This document shows positions 23,334 through 28,281 of a stretch of 64,000 nt of DNA, one piece after another. The stretch is from Entomospira culicis (GTDB lineage Bacteria; Spirochaetota; Spirochaetia; WRBN01). Made by a program: the position numbers and the translations under genes. The first letter of the stretch is position 1. Each line of letters starts with the position of its first letter. The stretch spans positions 193,433 through 257,432 of the forward strand of contig NZ_CP118181.1 in NCBI RefSeq assembly GCF_028748145.1. Reading direction: 5' to 3'. The notes under the pieces are model-generated. The model worked only from the letters and a program-made list of their open reading frames with translations, was not told where the DNA came from and made no database searches.

Positions 23334-23984
23334 CTAACGATTATCTCCTGTGTGGGCAAGGAGCGTTAAGAGATCGTCAAACACCTTGTCCATATCTTGG
23401 GAGCTATCCAAATCGGTAAGGAGCTGTTTATTTTTATAGTACTCAATGAGGGGCTGTGTTTCGGAGGCATAGACGGTAAGGCGATGTTTAATGGCCTCGG
23501 GTTGGTCGTCTTTGCGCACGATGAGTGCATGTCCACAGTGGTCGCAAATGCCCTCTTTTTGGGGAGGAAAGTCGTTTTTATGGAAGCTTGCGTTACAGTG
23601 AGGGCAGACAAGTCGTCCGCTGAGTCTGGCGATGATGACCGTTTGTGGCACAACAAAATTGATCGCTTGGTCGATGGTAGAGATCGTAGCTAGAGCGTCG
23701 GCTTGTGCAAGCGTACGCGGAAAGCCATCTAAAATATAGCCATGGTGCGCATCTTCTCTGCCTAAGCGATCGGCGACTAAGGCGATGGTAAGGGCATCGG
23801 GTACGAGTGCGCCACTACTAAGAATCGACTTTACCTCATTGCCAAGAGGCGTTTCATTTTTAATATTCTCTCGAAAAATGTCGCCCGTAGAGATGTGGGG
23901 AATGCCCATATGAACGGCTAATCGTTGCGCCATTGTGCCTTTTCCCGCACCGGGGGAGCCTAAAAAAATCAACTTATGCTTCAT
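23334..23984 (-). CDS. adk: Adenylate kinase, zinc-LID type
   Basis: 216 residues. P-loop GSPGAGKGT (about 8-16), DGFPRT (about 84-89), and a LID domain of the long type with a four-Cys zinc site: CPHC and CDHC (about 129-132 and 149-152). It keeps AMP, ADP and ATP in balance. The ATG overlaps the stop of the small zinc-ribbon gene (ATGA). A longer frame start inside that gene is rejected. Confidence 0.95.
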   Translation of the reverse strand: MKHKLIFLGSPGAGKGTMAQRLAVHMGIPHISTGDIFRENIKNETPLGNEVKSILSSGALVPDALTIALVADRLGREDAHHGYILDGFPRTLAQADALATISTIDQAINFVVPQTVIIARLSGRLVCPHCNASFHKNDFPPQKEGICDHCGHALIVRKDDQPEAIKHRLTVYASETQPLIEYYKNKQLLTDLDSSQDMDKVFDDLLTLLAHTGDNR

Positions 23985-24247
23985 TGTTTCTCCTGTGGTT
24001 GATGCGTAATTTGCACTACGCACTTGTATGAACCAAATTGTTTAAAAATATAGCGAATTTTACACTCACTACTACAGTAGTGGCGTCGAGAGAGCGTGAG
24101 GACAAAGGGACGATGGCAGTTGATACATAAGCGATACTTCTGCTCGCAGGTAGCACTGCAAAAGACGACAAGATCGTCCTTCTTCTTTAGATAAGAGCCA
24201 CATGTTAGACAACGTTTGTAATATTTGTTTAGAATCCATTCACTCAC
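23981..24247 (-). CDS. Small zinc-ribbon/zinc-finger protein
   Basis: 88 residues with a GTG start, or 100 with a TTG start at 24283. Eight Cys in paired motifs: CLTCG, FCSATC, LCINC, YCSSEC. This looks like two treble-clef or zinc-ribbon units, as in Zn-finger DUFs near ribosome and rRNA genes. The TTG start would lie on the -35 box of a promoter (TTGATA-17-TACACT), so GTG is preferred, seven bases after the -10. The stop overlaps the adk ATG by 4 bp, so the pair is coupled. No functional call. Confidence 0.6.
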   Translation of the reverse strand: MSEWILNKYYKRCLTCGSYLKKKDDLVVFCSATCEQKYRLCINCHRPFVLTLSRRHYCSSECKIRYIFKQFGSYKCVVQITHQPQEKQ

Positions 24248-24254
24248 ATATTCT

Positions 24255-24283
24255 AGTGTACATGAAAAAAATGCTTTTATCAA
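24255..24283 (-). promoter_or_regulatory. Promoter of the zinc-ribbon/adk/rlmN unit
   Basis: TTGATA (24278-24283), 17-bp spacer, TACACT (24255-24260). The GTG start at 24247 begins eight bases after the -10. Confidence 0.6.
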
Positions 24284-24312: not shown

Positions 24313-25410
24313 TTAGGATGCATGGAAAATTTCATACTCCTCGATGCTAGAGAGCCCAATATCTTGCCAATTGAGGTGTTCTGCCACGTGCATAATCAAT
24401 TTAACGGCGATTTCGGGCATGAGGGCAAGGCTACAAGATTCTCGTTCGTGGGTTTCAAAGAGATTCTCAGGATGTTCCCCAAATTCATAGAAATTTTTTC
24501 GCGTCATGGTCGCGCCTCTTCCGCCTAAATCAAATGCGATGGGCGTAATAATCTCGCTAATGCCACGCGTACCAGTAAAGGTGAGTTGAACCATCTTATT
24601 ACTATTAATGCTGGTGGTGCTTTGGGTGTAGTGCATATTTTTACTGCGCCACTCGATGCCACCTTGGAGGGTATCAATTGCCGAGATCACCTGTTCGATG
24701 CTAGCTAGACGGGAAGGATCGTCGTTATGGGTTTTGGTGTTGATTTTGGCATAGCGGATGGGAAAGTACGACAAAAATCCTTTGCCAGGCAGGTCTAGGC
24801 GTGCTTGGTGGGCAAGCAACTGGAGCACAAATTGGCTATCGCGATGGTGCACTGGCAGGTGAAGAAGCTCTTTTTCTGGCGAGATAGTAATACGCAGTAG
24901 CCCCATGCGTGAGCGCGTGCCCATGCCCATGCCATAGGCAATGGAGGGCGAGGGATAGCCACGGGTAAGCAGTGCATGACAAAGTTGTCCCGCATCGCCT
25001 CTTGCGCCAATCAGGGAGATAAGATGCATTTCGGTGCTTAAGAGTTGCTCAATCACTTGGCGCTTGAGCGAACTTGTCTCCATCTCTGCGTGTTGGTAGA
25101 TGTGCGTGTAGAGCGTAACGGCTTGACTAAGCACCGAGCCACGTCCGGGTACGAGAAGATAAAGATCGTCTACGAGTGTCTGGAGGTAGAGAAGCTCTAA
25201 CTCGTAAGGAACGTAAAGCTCAAAGATATCTTGTTGTTCGTCTTTGGTTTGGATACGCGTTTGCCAAAATTTTTTAGGGGGAATGGTGGCACTGCGCGCA
25301 CTCTGGGTAAGCACATAGGGGCTTTTGAGCTTGGTGAGGGTGGCGATTGCCTCTTCTTGAAGTGCGTGGTTGAGAGTGAGGGTGATTTTAATGAGTTGAT
25401 GTGGGTGCAT
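24313..25410 (-). CDS. Tandem PII-like signal protein next to DUF1538
   Basis: 365 residues. Two segments look like PII-type ferredoxin folds: about 1-115 (ends in LLVPGRGSVLSQAV, reminiscent of the P-G-x-G turn) and about 135-235 (GMGMGTRSRMGLLRITISPEKELLHLPV, then LDLPGKGFLSYFPI, where KG..., EKE and PGKG match the PII-like pattern). The remaining 130 residues (IEWRSKNM, GTRGISEIITPIAFD) are not recognised. Its ATG overlaps the TAA of the DUF1538 gene (TAATG), so both are coupled and likely work together. PII relation is inferred from pattern, not proven. Confidence 0.5.
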   Translation of the reverse strand: MHPHQLIKITLTLNHALQEEAIATLTKLKSPYVLTQSARSATIPPKKFWQTRIQTKDEQQDIFELYVPYELELLYLQTLVDDLYLLVPGRGSVLSQAVTLYTHIYQHAEMETSSLKRQVIEQLLSTEMHLISLIGARGDAGQLCHALLTRGYPSPSIAYGMGMGTRSRMGLLRITISPEKELLHLPVHHRDSQFVLQLLAHQARLDLPGKGFLSYFPIRYAKINTKTHNDDPSRLASIEQVISAIDTLQGGIEWRSKNMHYTQSTTSINSNKMVQLTFTGTRGISEIITPIAFDLGGRGATMTRKNFYEFGEHPENLFETHERESCSLALMPEIAVKLIMHVAEHLNWQDIGLSSIEEYEIFHAS

Positions 25411-27263
25411 TATTGCGATCCTCCCGCTTGTTTGAGTCGGCGTTGTTGAATCTTCTCGCCAAGACTGATGGTTAGTAAGATAAGAATGGGGATAGTAGCA
25501 CCGAGGGTTAAAAAGCCAAATTGTTCGCTACTTTGAAAGTATTGATTTAAGCCCAATCCTACGGCGATAACCAGAGGCACCGTAATTGGCCCAGTGGCGA
25601 CACCGGCGGCATCCCACGCAATTGCCATGTATGTACTTTCGCTGAATATGGTTAAGAGAAGAGCAATGGTATAGAGAGGCAAAAGAATCAAGATAAAGGG
25701 GATATCAAACATCATCCGCAACACGCCAATTGCCAGACCAATGCCCACCCCTAGCGCGACTTGCTTGATGAGCTGTGCTTTAGGAAAACTACCGGCAGTC
25801 AGTTCAGAGAGGGTGTTGGCAAGCGCATGCAGGGTAGGTTCGGCAACCACAGCGCCAAAGCCAAGAAGAACAAAAAAGGCAAAAAAGAGTGCCATTTTAC
25901 CCCAAGGCAGGGCAATTTCCTCCTCAAAGATGGGGTGATCAGCGCGTAGATGATAGGTCTTTTGTTCGGCATCGTAGAGCGCTTCTTCAAAGGGAATGTA
26001 ATTTATCTTATCATCTATAACCAACGGGAAGAAGGCAACACGTTCGCCATCTGCCTTTGGGAAGTATGCTAGTTGATCGATTTGGAAATTTTCGATAGTT
26101 TTAGGCGGAGCTTCGGTAGGCTTAATAATACTAGAGACGTTCGCCCCTACGCCTTGCCCAAGGGGCGTGAGACCGGTTTGGATGCCGTAGTTAAGGAAGA
26201 ACATGCCCACAATGCTAAAGAGAACGCCCAGTACTTTTTCATCGATGAGGTTGGGCTTTTTGCGGATAAAGAGCATGATAATTACGACCAACGCTAAGAC
26301 TAAAGGCCCTACCGCCGTGATGGCCGCGCCTAATTGGCTGAGGAAGAGCTGTAGATGTTCGGAGAGTTGGCTTAGCCAAGACGTATCGATGTGCTCTAGG
26401 GTGTTAGCGGTAAAGATACTGGCTTTTGGGTCTTGTAAAAATATTTCTAATGTCTCTTGTGGATGGGGCATACGGTTGCGTAAGAGCAGGCTCAAGGTTA
26501 AAAGTGCATTGATAGGGCCTAAGTTGGCAAGGGTAACAATGCCTAAGCCGTTGCTGTCGGAGTTGCTACCGGTGGTGCGATTGATTCCTAACCCAAAGGC
26601 GATGATAAGCGGAACGGTAACTGCGCCCGTAGCGATACCGCCTGCATCCCACGCTAAGGCGACCATTGGGCGTGAGCGAGGGTCGAGGTAGGCGATAATG
26701 GAGAGGGTGAGGGCAAGTAAGAGGAGGGTAATGATAAAGGCTTTAAGCGAGAGATTCTTCAGTGTCATAAGGCTACCGGCAAGCATGGCAAAGCCTACGC
26801 CAAAGCCTAGCGCAAGGATAAAGAGAAAATTATTTTCATTAAAGAGATAGTAAAGTAGCGGTGCTTGATGCATGGGGATAAAGTTTGCCACACTTTGGAG
26901 CACCACCATAGCAGGCTCGGCAAGGGTTGCTAGCGCACCGAGGGCGAAGGCTAAGCCTAGCGTGATGGTGAGGGGCGTTTTATTGGGAAGTTCGGCACCA
27001 GCCATCTCGGCGAGGGGCATGACGCTAAGAAAAAGACCCTCTAAAAAGAACGCAAGCCCTAAGACGACTGCGACTAAGCCTATAAAAATGACAAGAGGAT
27101 TATTGAGGGAGTTGCCAAGGATAAATACTTGAAATATAATAAGATATAGCGAAATAAAGCTAATAGCTTTAAGCTGTGCAGATACCTTTTTTTGGGCGTA
27201 TCCACCTAGGAGCGTCATCGCTTGCGTGGGGGTGATGGTGATTTTTTGATATTTTGCGTTCAT
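25410..27263 (-). CDS. DUF1538 integral membrane protein (duplicated domain)
   Basis: 617 residues, about 14 membrane helices, made of two homologous halves. Each has the DUF1538 pattern: first PLAEMAGAELP and ALATLAEPAMVVLQ, later WDAGGIATGAVTVPLIIAFGLGI; second FGAVVAEPTLHALA and WDAAGVATGPITVPLVIAVGLGL. Such inverted or tandem repeats suggest a transporter or channel, but the substrate of the family is not known to me. Promoter TTGATT-17-TATTAT ends 9 bases before the ATG; no RBS is visible. The coupled PII-like protein suggests gating by a nucleotide or 2-oxoglutarate-type signal. Confidence 0.75.
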   Translation of the reverse strand: MNAKYQKITITPTQAMTLLGGYAQKKVSAQLKAISFISLYLIIFQVFILGNSLNNPLVIFIGLVAVVLGLAFFLEGLFLSVMPLAEMAGAELPNKTPLTITLGLAFALGALATLAEPAMVVLQSVANFIPMHQAPLLYYLFNENNFLFILALGFGVGFAMLAGSLMTLKNLSLKAFIITLLLLALTLSIIAYLDPRSRPMVALAWDAGGIATGAVTVPLIIAFGLGINRTTGSNSDSNGLGIVTLANLGPINALLTLSLLLRNRMPHPQETLEIFLQDPKASIFTANTLEHIDTSWLSQLSEHLQLFLSQLGAAITAVGPLVLALVVIIMLFIRKKPNLIDEKVLGVLFSIVGMFFLNYGIQTGLTPLGQGVGANVSSIIKPTEAPPKTIENFQIDQLAYFPKADGERVAFFPLVIDDKINYIPFEEALYDAEQKTYHLRADHPIFEEEIALPWGKMALFFAFFVLLGFGAVVAEPTLHALANTLSELTAGSFPKAQLIKQVALGVGIGLAIGVLRMMFDIPFILILLPLYTIALLLTIFSESTYMAIAWDAAGVATGPITVPLVIAVGLGLNQYFQSSEQFGFLTLGATIPILILLTISLGEKIQQRRLKQAGGSQ

Positions 27264-27272
27264 ACGTTACAT

Positions 27273-27301
27273 ATAATAACACGATTTGCAAAAAAAATCA
27301 A
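27273..27301 (-). promoter_or_regulatory. Promoter of the DUF1538 gene
   Basis: TTGATT (27296-27301), 17-bp spacer, TATTAT (27273-27278); nine bases from the -10 to the ATG. Confidence 0.55.
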
Positions 27302-28281
27302 TGCAATTTTTCTTGATTGATATAAGGAAAAGTTGCCTGTAGGGCGCGAGCAAAGTCGGTACGCCAGAGGCTCCATTGATGTCCTGCACTTGGGGTTACA
27401 AAGATTTTGGCGTGGGGGACGTGTTCTGTAAAGAAGTCGTGGAGAAAGCGCGTGCCAGAATCGGTGATGGGGTCGGCGTCGCCATAGAAGAGGAGAATAT
27501 CGAGCTCTGCAAGCCGATCAGGTCGGCGCTCATGGAGGTAGGGATAGGTTTTGGGGATGAAGAGCAGGGCATTGAAGGGTTGTGCCTCCCCGGCAAAGGC
27601 AAAGGCGCGATATTGAATGACGTTTCTAAGAACGATGCGCTCTCGCCAATTACCGGGGGTAGCATCGGGGTGGGTCTCGGGATTTAAGGGCGAAGGCAGA
27701 AAGAGCGCTGGGGAGAAGAGCCATAGGTGGGCAAAGGTATCGCTATGATGGAATGCATAATTGAGGGCGCCAAAGCCACCCATACTAATGCCTGCGATGA
27801 CACGTTTTTGCGGGTCGGTAGAGATGGCGTAGTAGAGGGCGATGTGAGGTAGGAGATCGTGAAAGAAGGCGCTCTCAATCGAGCCAAAGGCTTCGGAGTC
27901 TACCCACCAGCTCTGACGAAAACCATTGGGAAAGACCACAATTACGGGATCAATCAGGTTTTTTTCAATTAAGTCATTAATAAGTGACGCGAATTTCTTA
28001 GTCTCAAAGCTCTTGTCGGTATTGAACATGCCGTGGAGCATAAAGATGACGGGATACTTCTCCTCTGGATGCTCGCTCACCACCTTAGGTAAATAAATGC
28101 TATAACGCCACTCATTTTTGAGCGTGGGCGAGAAGAAGGCGCGATGATGAATCTGTTGCGCCATAAGTTTAGGAGTAAATATCATAAAAATCACCAAGAA
28201 CAAGGAAACATTAAGACCCAGCCATGCGGATCTTTGCAGAAACGTATCAGAACGATTATCGCCTAAAATAAGAGAGACCAT
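27298..28281 (-). CDS. Esterase-like alpha/beta hydrolase (esterase D family)
   Basis: 327 residues, with a membrane helix or signal anchor near residues 20-42. The nucleophile elbow is GISMGGFG (about 153), the acid is likely the Asp in FYGDADPI (about 258), and the His is SAGHQWSLWR (about 303), completing a Ser-Asp-His triad of the putative-esterase family (S-formylglutathione hydrolase, antigen 85, enterochelin-esterase type). An oxyanion region MLHGMF follows the usual form. The substrate is unknown. The start lies eight bases after a -10 box, suggesting a leaderless mRNA. Confidence 0.85.
   Translation of the reverse strand: MVSLILGDNRSDTFLQRSAWLGLNVSLFLVIFMIFTPKLMAQQIHHRAFFSPTLKNEWRYSIYLPKVVSEHPEEKYPVIFMLHGMFNTDKSFETKKFASLINDLIEKNLIDPVIVVFPNGFRQSWWVDSEAFGSIESAFFHDLLPHIALYYAISTDPQKRVIAGISMGGFGALNYAFHHSDTFAHLWLFSPALFLPSPLNPETHPDATPGNWRERIVLRNVIQYRAFAFAGEAQPFNALLFIPKTYPYLHERRPDRLAELDILLFYGDADPITDSGTRFLHDFFTEHVPHAKIFVTPSAGHQWSLWRTDFARALQATFPYINQEKLH

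Follow-up and report, generated by a model that had tools for sequence, protein, structure and literature searches.

The DUF1538 locus of Entomospira culicis

We analysed a 64,000-nucleotide stretch of the Entomospira culicis genome (contig NZ_CP118181.1, positions 193,433 to 257,432; hereafter the window, in whose coordinates all features are given), in which the gene for a two-half DUF1538 membrane protein overlaps the gene for a 365-residue protein with predicted PII-like domains. The main features of the locus are as follows.

25410..27263, minus strand: two-half DUF1538 membrane protein, 617 residues, with 14 predicted membrane helices and resembling a fusion of UmpA and UmpB
24313..25410, minus strand: putative three-domain PII-like protein, 365 residues (predicted model, Foldseek, family profile)
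25408..25412, minus strand: TAATG stop/start overlap of the two genes (sequence)
25420..25424, minus strand: GGAGG ribosome-binding site for the PII-like gene, within the 3' end of the DUF1538 gene (sequence)

The overlap region reads ...GGGAGGATCGCAATAATGCAC..., with GGAGG ahead of the start of the PII-like gene. When we re-checked the sequence, the open reading frames, their coordinates and the TAATG coupling all agreed with an earlier sequence-only reading of this DNA. That reading had placed the end of the feature at 27301, which falls 4 bases inside an upstream esterase gene (27298-28281).

DUF1538 and its partner are linked across about ten phyla

A profile of the 365-residue protein family was scanned against 84,980 species genomes and yielded 80 loci from Spirochaetota, Cloacimonadota, Bacteroidota, Riflebacteria, Desulfobacterota, Elusimicrobia, Lentisphaerae/PVC, Calditrichaeota, Fibrobacteres, Bdellovibrionales and others, about ten phyla altogether. 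A DUF1538 gene lay directly upstream and on the same strand in all 78 loci that could be assessed, with a gap of -53 to +116 base pairs (bp); at the remaining two, the contig starts at or within the partner gene. Among 296 genomes of the host phylum, DUF1538 was present in 83, the partner in 84 and both in 80 (Fisher p = 3e-63, a nominal value because the genomes are related). In addition, the pairwise distances of the DUF1538 proteins and of their partners over 66 loci were correlated at r = 0.94, and none of 2000 permutations exceeded 0.22, which indicates that the two proteins travel together. Almost every fused DUF1538 system that we examined retains a PII partner. The linkage of the two genes, which overlap in the window, is near-obligatory and far beyond chance, and the co-occurrence to which the sequence-only reading had tied its proposal is found in almost all cases.

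The 365-residue protein is predicted to contain three PII-like domains

We built an AlphaFold model of the 365-residue protein with 54 aligned sequences. The model (predicted local distance difference test score, pLDDT, 88.1; predicted template modelling score, pTM, 0.88) showed three strand-helix-strand-strand-helix-strand (babbab) units, D1, D2 and D3, each predicted to adopt the ferredoxin-like PII fold. With strands as E and helices as H, D1 comprises E3-14 H15-27 E32-43 E56-67 H69-82 E91-102, D2 comprises E128-136 H140-149 E156-163 E179-188 H189-202 E212-222, and D3 comprises E271-280 H284-294 E300-309 E320-330 H332-345 E353-363.

25105..25404, minus strand: predicted PII-like domain D1 (residues 3-102), with a PGRG B-loop (babbab in model; hhalign)
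24745..25029, minus strand: predicted PII-like domain D2 (residues 128-222), with a GxGxxxR T-loop base, PEKE and a PGKG B-loop; the most conserved domain (model; conservation)
24643..24705, minus strand: D2-D3 linker (residues 236-256), with the family-specific motif ASIEQxIxAIDxLxGGxxWR; A236, Q240, A244, D246, W254 and R255 are invariant in 54 relatives
24322..24600, minus strand: predicted PII-like domain D3 (residues 271-363), with GxGAT kept and the PGxG B-loop lost (babbab in model; hhalign)

The sequence-only reading had anticipated a ferredoxin-like fold and two segments of PII-like pattern, marked by PGRG and by EKE plus PGKG. The fold is that of the model and the motifs are present; the PII-like nature of the protein held up, while the number of domains rose to three, D3 being the one that lacks the PGxG marker loop.

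Profile-profile comparison with hhalign related the domains to one another (D1-D2 98.5%, D1-D3 92.9%, D2-D3 96.0%), and each matched the second P-II domain (S2) of a family of two-domain partners at about 98% (D3 at 98.1%); this second domain itself matched canonical PII at 94.5%. The three profiles also matched the one-domain P-II partners of split DUF1538 systems at E-values of about 1e-10 to 1e-19, the Chelativorans protein being matched by D1 at 1.5e-12, by D2 at 9e-20 and by D3 at 3.5e-13, and these one-domain partners are themselves over the Pfam P-II cut-off. The profile of the three-domain family matched PII chains in the PDB, the best being MJ0059 (E 4e-5), and that of the two-domain family matched a P-II chain at 2.7e-8. 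When single domains were submitted to Foldseek, PII, CPII, SbtB and PotN chains were returned at a probability of 1.00, with template modelling (TM) scores by target of at most 0.75. Sulfur oxygenase reductase (twice) and aspartate kinase had better E-values and were rejected at probabilities below 0.9, TM scores of at most 0.20 and root mean square deviations near 20 Å. We also set aside DUF2179, CutA and other ferredoxin-like families, PF00543 being far stronger in the two-domain relatives.

Single-sequence searches with the 365-residue protein returned nothing in Pfam, NCBIfam, the PDB (no significant match) or genome contigs, so the PII relationship is seen only through family profiles. 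PF00543 was matched at E<=0.01 by 17 of the 54 members of the three-domain family (best 3e-7), the window protein not being among them, and neither Pfam nor NCBIfam recognises the window protein as PII. Its lack of a Pfam match and of a significant PDB sequence match when taken alone would suit a chance resemblance, or convergence on a ferredoxin-like architecture. Against this, the D1-D3 profiles reach true P-II proteins that stand beside split DUF1538 genes and pass the Pfam cut-off, and we regard chance or convergence as extremely improbable. By profile comparison, the three domains are mutually homologous and belong to the PII family.

Conservation within the partner is highest in three places: the T-loop base and strand of D2 (GxGxxxRDxLGLLRITIPPEKE), its B-loop (PGxG) and the D2-D3 linker (ASIEQIIAAIDxLKGGTxWR). 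The T-loop base and strand and the linker belong to the lower-confidence parts of the model, and the linker is among the most conserved stretches despite a pLDDT of only 68-81. Low model confidence in conserved segments would fit parts that settle on a partner. The canonical GDGK B-loop lysine is absent from D1 (PGRGS), from D2 (PGKGF) and from D3, which has no B-loop. One chain thus has as many homologous PII domains as a PII trimer has subunits, namely three, and the high pTM means that the arrangement of D1, D2 and D3 is predicted as fixed. We infer that the protein may be a single-chain PII pseudotrimer.

PII partners of DUF1538 form a graded series

In related genomes, the partner next to DUF1538 is about 350-420 residues long beside long DUF1538 proteins and 215-233 residues long beside short ones (about 490-530 residues). 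Short partners consist of two P-II domains that score over the Pfam P-II cut-off (E down to 1e-13), and long partners match Pfam P-II below the cut-off, some in their second and some in their third part. Three states can be distinguished: two separate DUF1538 genes with a one-domain P-II gene (112 residues in Chelativorans, 122 in Methylocystis); a fused DUF1538 gene with a two-domain P-II gene (222 residues; Paraclostridium, Peptoclostridium); and, as in the window, a fused DUF1538 gene, usually with a predicted periplasmic insert in its second half, together with a three-domain partner. The proteins annotated in RefSeq as P-II nitrogen regulators beside DUF1538 in these four genera share the gene order and homologous domains with the window pair, but have one or two PII domains that score over the Pfam cut-off, whereas the window family has three that fall below it. 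The sequence-only reading had pictured a tandem PII pair as the counterpart of a two-half transporter; the model and the profiles give the window partner three domains, and the two-domain form is found in a sister group. A strict rule that a long DUF1538 goes with a three-domain partner was rejected, as it fails at three loci (L118, L124 and L132), where a DUF1538 of about 495-545 residues accompanies a three-domain partner.

Some genomes depart from the simple pair. Several spirochaete genomes (G258, G188, G008 and G318) each carry two DUF1538 systems, and at the L052 locus of G008 one two-domain P-II gene is flanked by two short DUF1538 genes. In G145 and G327, which belong to one genus, a two-domain P-II relative is kept and no DUF1538 protein was detected.

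The DUF1538 protein is a relative of the UmpAB antiporter

PF07556 (DUF1538) matched both halves of the membrane protein in two stretches (E 1.7e-89, 299.1 bits against a gathering cut-off of 22.6). In NCBIfam (models NF041627/NF041628), the N-terminal half (residues 27-259) was nearest to UmpA (E 9.5e-40, 136.4 bits against an equivalog cut-off of 490) and the C-terminal half (residues 444-599) to UmpB (E 2.8e-30, 105.6 bits against 500). By these scores, the protein is a relative of UmpAB and not an equivalog. Its predicted model (pLDDT 87.3, pTM 0.86) has 14 helices, seven per half, which would place the halves in inverted orientation to each other. Helices 3, 6, 10 and 13 are predicted to be broken at AEP (E116, E475) and WDxxG...TVP (D206, D551), and the four acidic residues at these breaks are invariant across 49 relatives.

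26910..26921, minus strand: AEPA motif of half 1 (E116) at the break in helix 3; E116 and P117 invariant in 49 relatives, helix break between 114 and 118
26610..26651, minus strand: WDAGGIATGAVTVP motif of half 1 (D206) at the break in helix 6; W205 and D206 invariant in 49 relatives, helix break 211-216
25833..25844, minus strand: AEPT motif of half 2 (E475) at the break in helix 10; A474, E475 and P476 invariant in 49 relatives, helix break 473-476
25575..25616, minus strand: WDAAGVATGPITVP motif of half 2 (D551) at the break in helix 13; W550 and D551 invariant in 49 relatives, helix break 555-561
25905..26126, minus strand: soluble insert of half 2 (residues 380-453), with strands in the model; absent from short DUF1538 proteins (alignment)

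These results uphold the two-half DUF1538 architecture with 14 helices that had been proposed, as well as a WDAxGxATGxxTVP motif in each half; AEPA, also claimed for each half, occurs in the first only, the second having AEPT (A474-E475-P476-T477). The insert in half 2 is predicted to be extracytoplasmic (periplasmic), because the 14-helix topology has both termini inside and because its composition is acidic.

The studied member pair of the family is UmpAB of Halomonas zhaodongensis, which was measured in E. coli KNabc as a Na+(Li+,K+)/H+ antiporter active at pH 6.5-9.5 and forms a heterodimer by co-immunoprecipitation (PMC5484666). The statement that the substrate is not known was therefore too strong for the family, while for the window protein the substrate is only inferred, since its scores lie far under the NCBIfam equivalog cut-offs. 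UmpAB and the window protein share the Pfam family, two homologous seven-helix units and an UmpA-like then UmpB-like order. They differ in that UmpA and UmpB are separate chains, whereas in the window protein the two halves are fused and the second has a predicted extracytoplasmic insert; in addition, no PII partner has been described for UmpAB, and the window scores fall under the UmpA and UmpB equivalog models. The likeliest activity of the window DUF1538 is exchange of a monovalent cation for protons, as in UmpAB.

The partner could instead control a DUF1538 protein that carries something other than a monovalent cation, such as an organic ion or a divalent metal, the Na+/H+ exchange of UmpAB being a side activity or specific to its branch. 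The sub-threshold similarity to UmpA and UmpB leaves room for this, as does the fold search, which found no solved structure resembling the DUF1538 model (best E 4.5e-3, TM < 0.2) and hence no substrate site that could be transferred. The immediate neighbours of the pair are varied, K+ systems occurring alongside carriers of organic ions (SDF, CitMHS), which points the same way. However, invariant E116, D206, E475 and D551 at the helix breaks of both halves suit cation/proton exchange, and PF07556 is within the top 20 Pfam families that predict bacterial growth pH (PMC13255231). We consider a different substrate unlikely, yet the most serious of the alternatives.

Neighbouring genes

Ion_trans_2 occurred in 6 of 87 immediate neighbours. 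For 83 distant control genes, the 25 most frequent families did not include it, although one case could be hidden below these; K+ channel or Trk genes as a general neighbour were rejected as a weak signal. At three spirochaete loci with a short DUF1538, the pair is followed immediately, on the same strand, by a gene for a K+ channel that has a TIGYGD filter and a cyclic-nucleotide-binding domain (L118:4750-6396, L124:8024-9667 and L132:8009-9643). We count these loci in favour of the regulator proposed below; the channel genes would also be in keeping with a PII-like protein that acts elsewhere, for instance on a K+ channel or on metabolism, so that the operon reports joint regulation only. 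Several targets are known for classical PII proteins, and in two genomes a two-domain relative occurs without DUF1538. Nevertheless, apart from DUF1538, which is nearly always there, the genes around the partner vary and none of them is constant, which makes action elsewhere very unlikely in our judgement.

Genes assigned by eye from the sequence to Na+-NQR/Rnf-like subunits stand beside the pair in two genomes of one genus (L046:662-5010 and L042:5606-7802), which is consistent with a sodium cycle. In the window, the putative esterase gene (27298-28281, minus strand; PF00756, E 3e-21) precedes the DUF1538 gene by 34 bp, is read from the same strand and is possibly the first gene of the operon; an esterase was not seen as a constant neighbour at the loci of other genomes. 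Between the PII-like gene and adk, a 100-residue Cys-rich open reading frame with several CxxC-type pairs (23981-24283, minus strand) overlaps the adk start region and had no match in a Pfam search.

A candidate docking regulator of the antiporter

PII proteins act by binding transporters, including AmtB, SbtA, NrtABCD and UrtABCDE (PMC10710835). The cloned fragment bearing UmpAB contained no PII gene (PMC5484666), and the PII part should therefore be dispensable for transport and have another role. Since UmpAB is active without PII, yet fused systems keep a PII protein, and since PII proteins bind transporters, the simplest reading is a dedicated docking regulator. In such a unit, a DUF1538 secondary transporter with two homologous seven-helix halves would work together with a dedicated cytoplasmic regulator of the PII family, which would carry on a single polypeptide the set of three domains that a PII homotrimer assembles from separate subunits. 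The pseudotrimer would bind the cytoplasmic face of the transporter and lower or gate its activity. Its binding would depend on a small effector (an adenine nucleotide or a cyclic dinucleotide is probable) that occupies at least one inter-domain cleft, with D2 and the conserved linker to D3 as the main region. On balance, we lean towards a single-chain PII pseudotrimer that docks on, and gates in an effector-dependent manner, a DUF1538 cation/proton antiporter.

The near-obligatory linkage, with overlapping genes in fused systems, could also mean that the transporter holds the PII-like protein permanently, as an integral subunit or as an assembly factor without a signalling role, and the loss of the canonical nucleotide-binding lysine and of the D3 B-loop agrees with this. 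UmpAB nonetheless works in E. coli without a PII protein, and the glycine-rich loops of D1 and D2, which are effector sites in PII, are among the best-conserved positions; a purely structural role seems improbable to us.

For the effector, the gene content of the 1.77-Mb host genome is informative. Neither AmtB nor another ammonium transporter was found in it, nor any P-II protein over the Pfam cut-off; the DUF1538 partner is the only clear PII-type protein that we found there, and a diadenylate cyclase is encoded. With the GDGK lysine not conserved, we dropped PII/AmtB control of the nitrogen type. Together, these features make classical nitrogen reporting, by 2-oxoglutarate or ammonium, unlikely here, and adenine nucleotides or cyclic di-AMP are probably the first effector candidates. 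In GlnK-AmtB, a PII protein controls a membrane transporter, the trimeric ammonium carrier AmtB, from paired genes like those of the window; here, by contrast, the host lacks both AmtB and a P-II over the cut-off, and canonical GDGK is not conserved in the partner. A second comparison is with SbtA, which to our knowledge is not a DUF1538 protein. SbtA and SbtB are a cyanobacterial bicarbonate transporter and its PII-like inhibitor (PMC8352866), and resemble the window pair as a Na+-linked secondary transporter with a dedicated PII-like protein, SbtB being among the Foldseek PII-fold matches. A difference is that SbtB acts on a trimeric transporter (PMC10710835).

Several points weigh against the docking regulator. 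DUF1538 proteins are not known to trimerise. PII control has been noted so far only for transporters able to do so (PMC10710835). The GDGK lysine is missing from all three domains, so the usual kind of ATP binding is doubtful, and the three-fold arrangement is drawn from pTM and domain count, not from model coordinates. At 136 and 106 bits against UmpA and UmpB cut-offs of 490 and 500, the substrate of the window protein may differ; we found no studied DUF1538 members other than UmpAB, which itself comes from one study (PMC5484666).

A fuller proposal, to which we give rather less credence, is that a diverged D1/D2/D3 pseudotrimer, with D2 and the linker for sensing and docking and with D3 devoid of a B-loop, gates the antiporter. 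This would bring together an asymmetric PII, an antiporter fold unseen in solved structures and the first PII control of Na+/H+ or K+/H+ exchange. The arrangement would extend across about ten phyla, in graded forms with one, two or three PII domains per chain.

Significance of the pairing

In a literature search that did not cover subscription papers or preprints, we found no published description of the DUF1538-PII pairing and nothing relevant on tandem PII proteins or PII pseudotrimers. The UmpAB study makes no mention of PII (PMC5484666). RefSeq annotation does show the two genes side by side, so that the pairing is in plain view, yet it is undescribed as far as we searched.

Few signal proteins are as widespread as those of the PII family, and the membrane targets known for them serve mostly the uptake of nitrogen and carbon. 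If confirmed, a PII protein dedicated to a cation/proton antiporter would couple salt and pH homeostasis to the metabolic state of the cell. If the three-in-one chain is real, nature would have supplied an asymmetric PII; single mutations could then separate the roles of its three sites, as is impossible in a homotrimer. The pairing also opens DUF1538, of which one member pair has been studied, to direct tests of function, and it may point to a form of on/off control of salt and pH transporters that has not been described.

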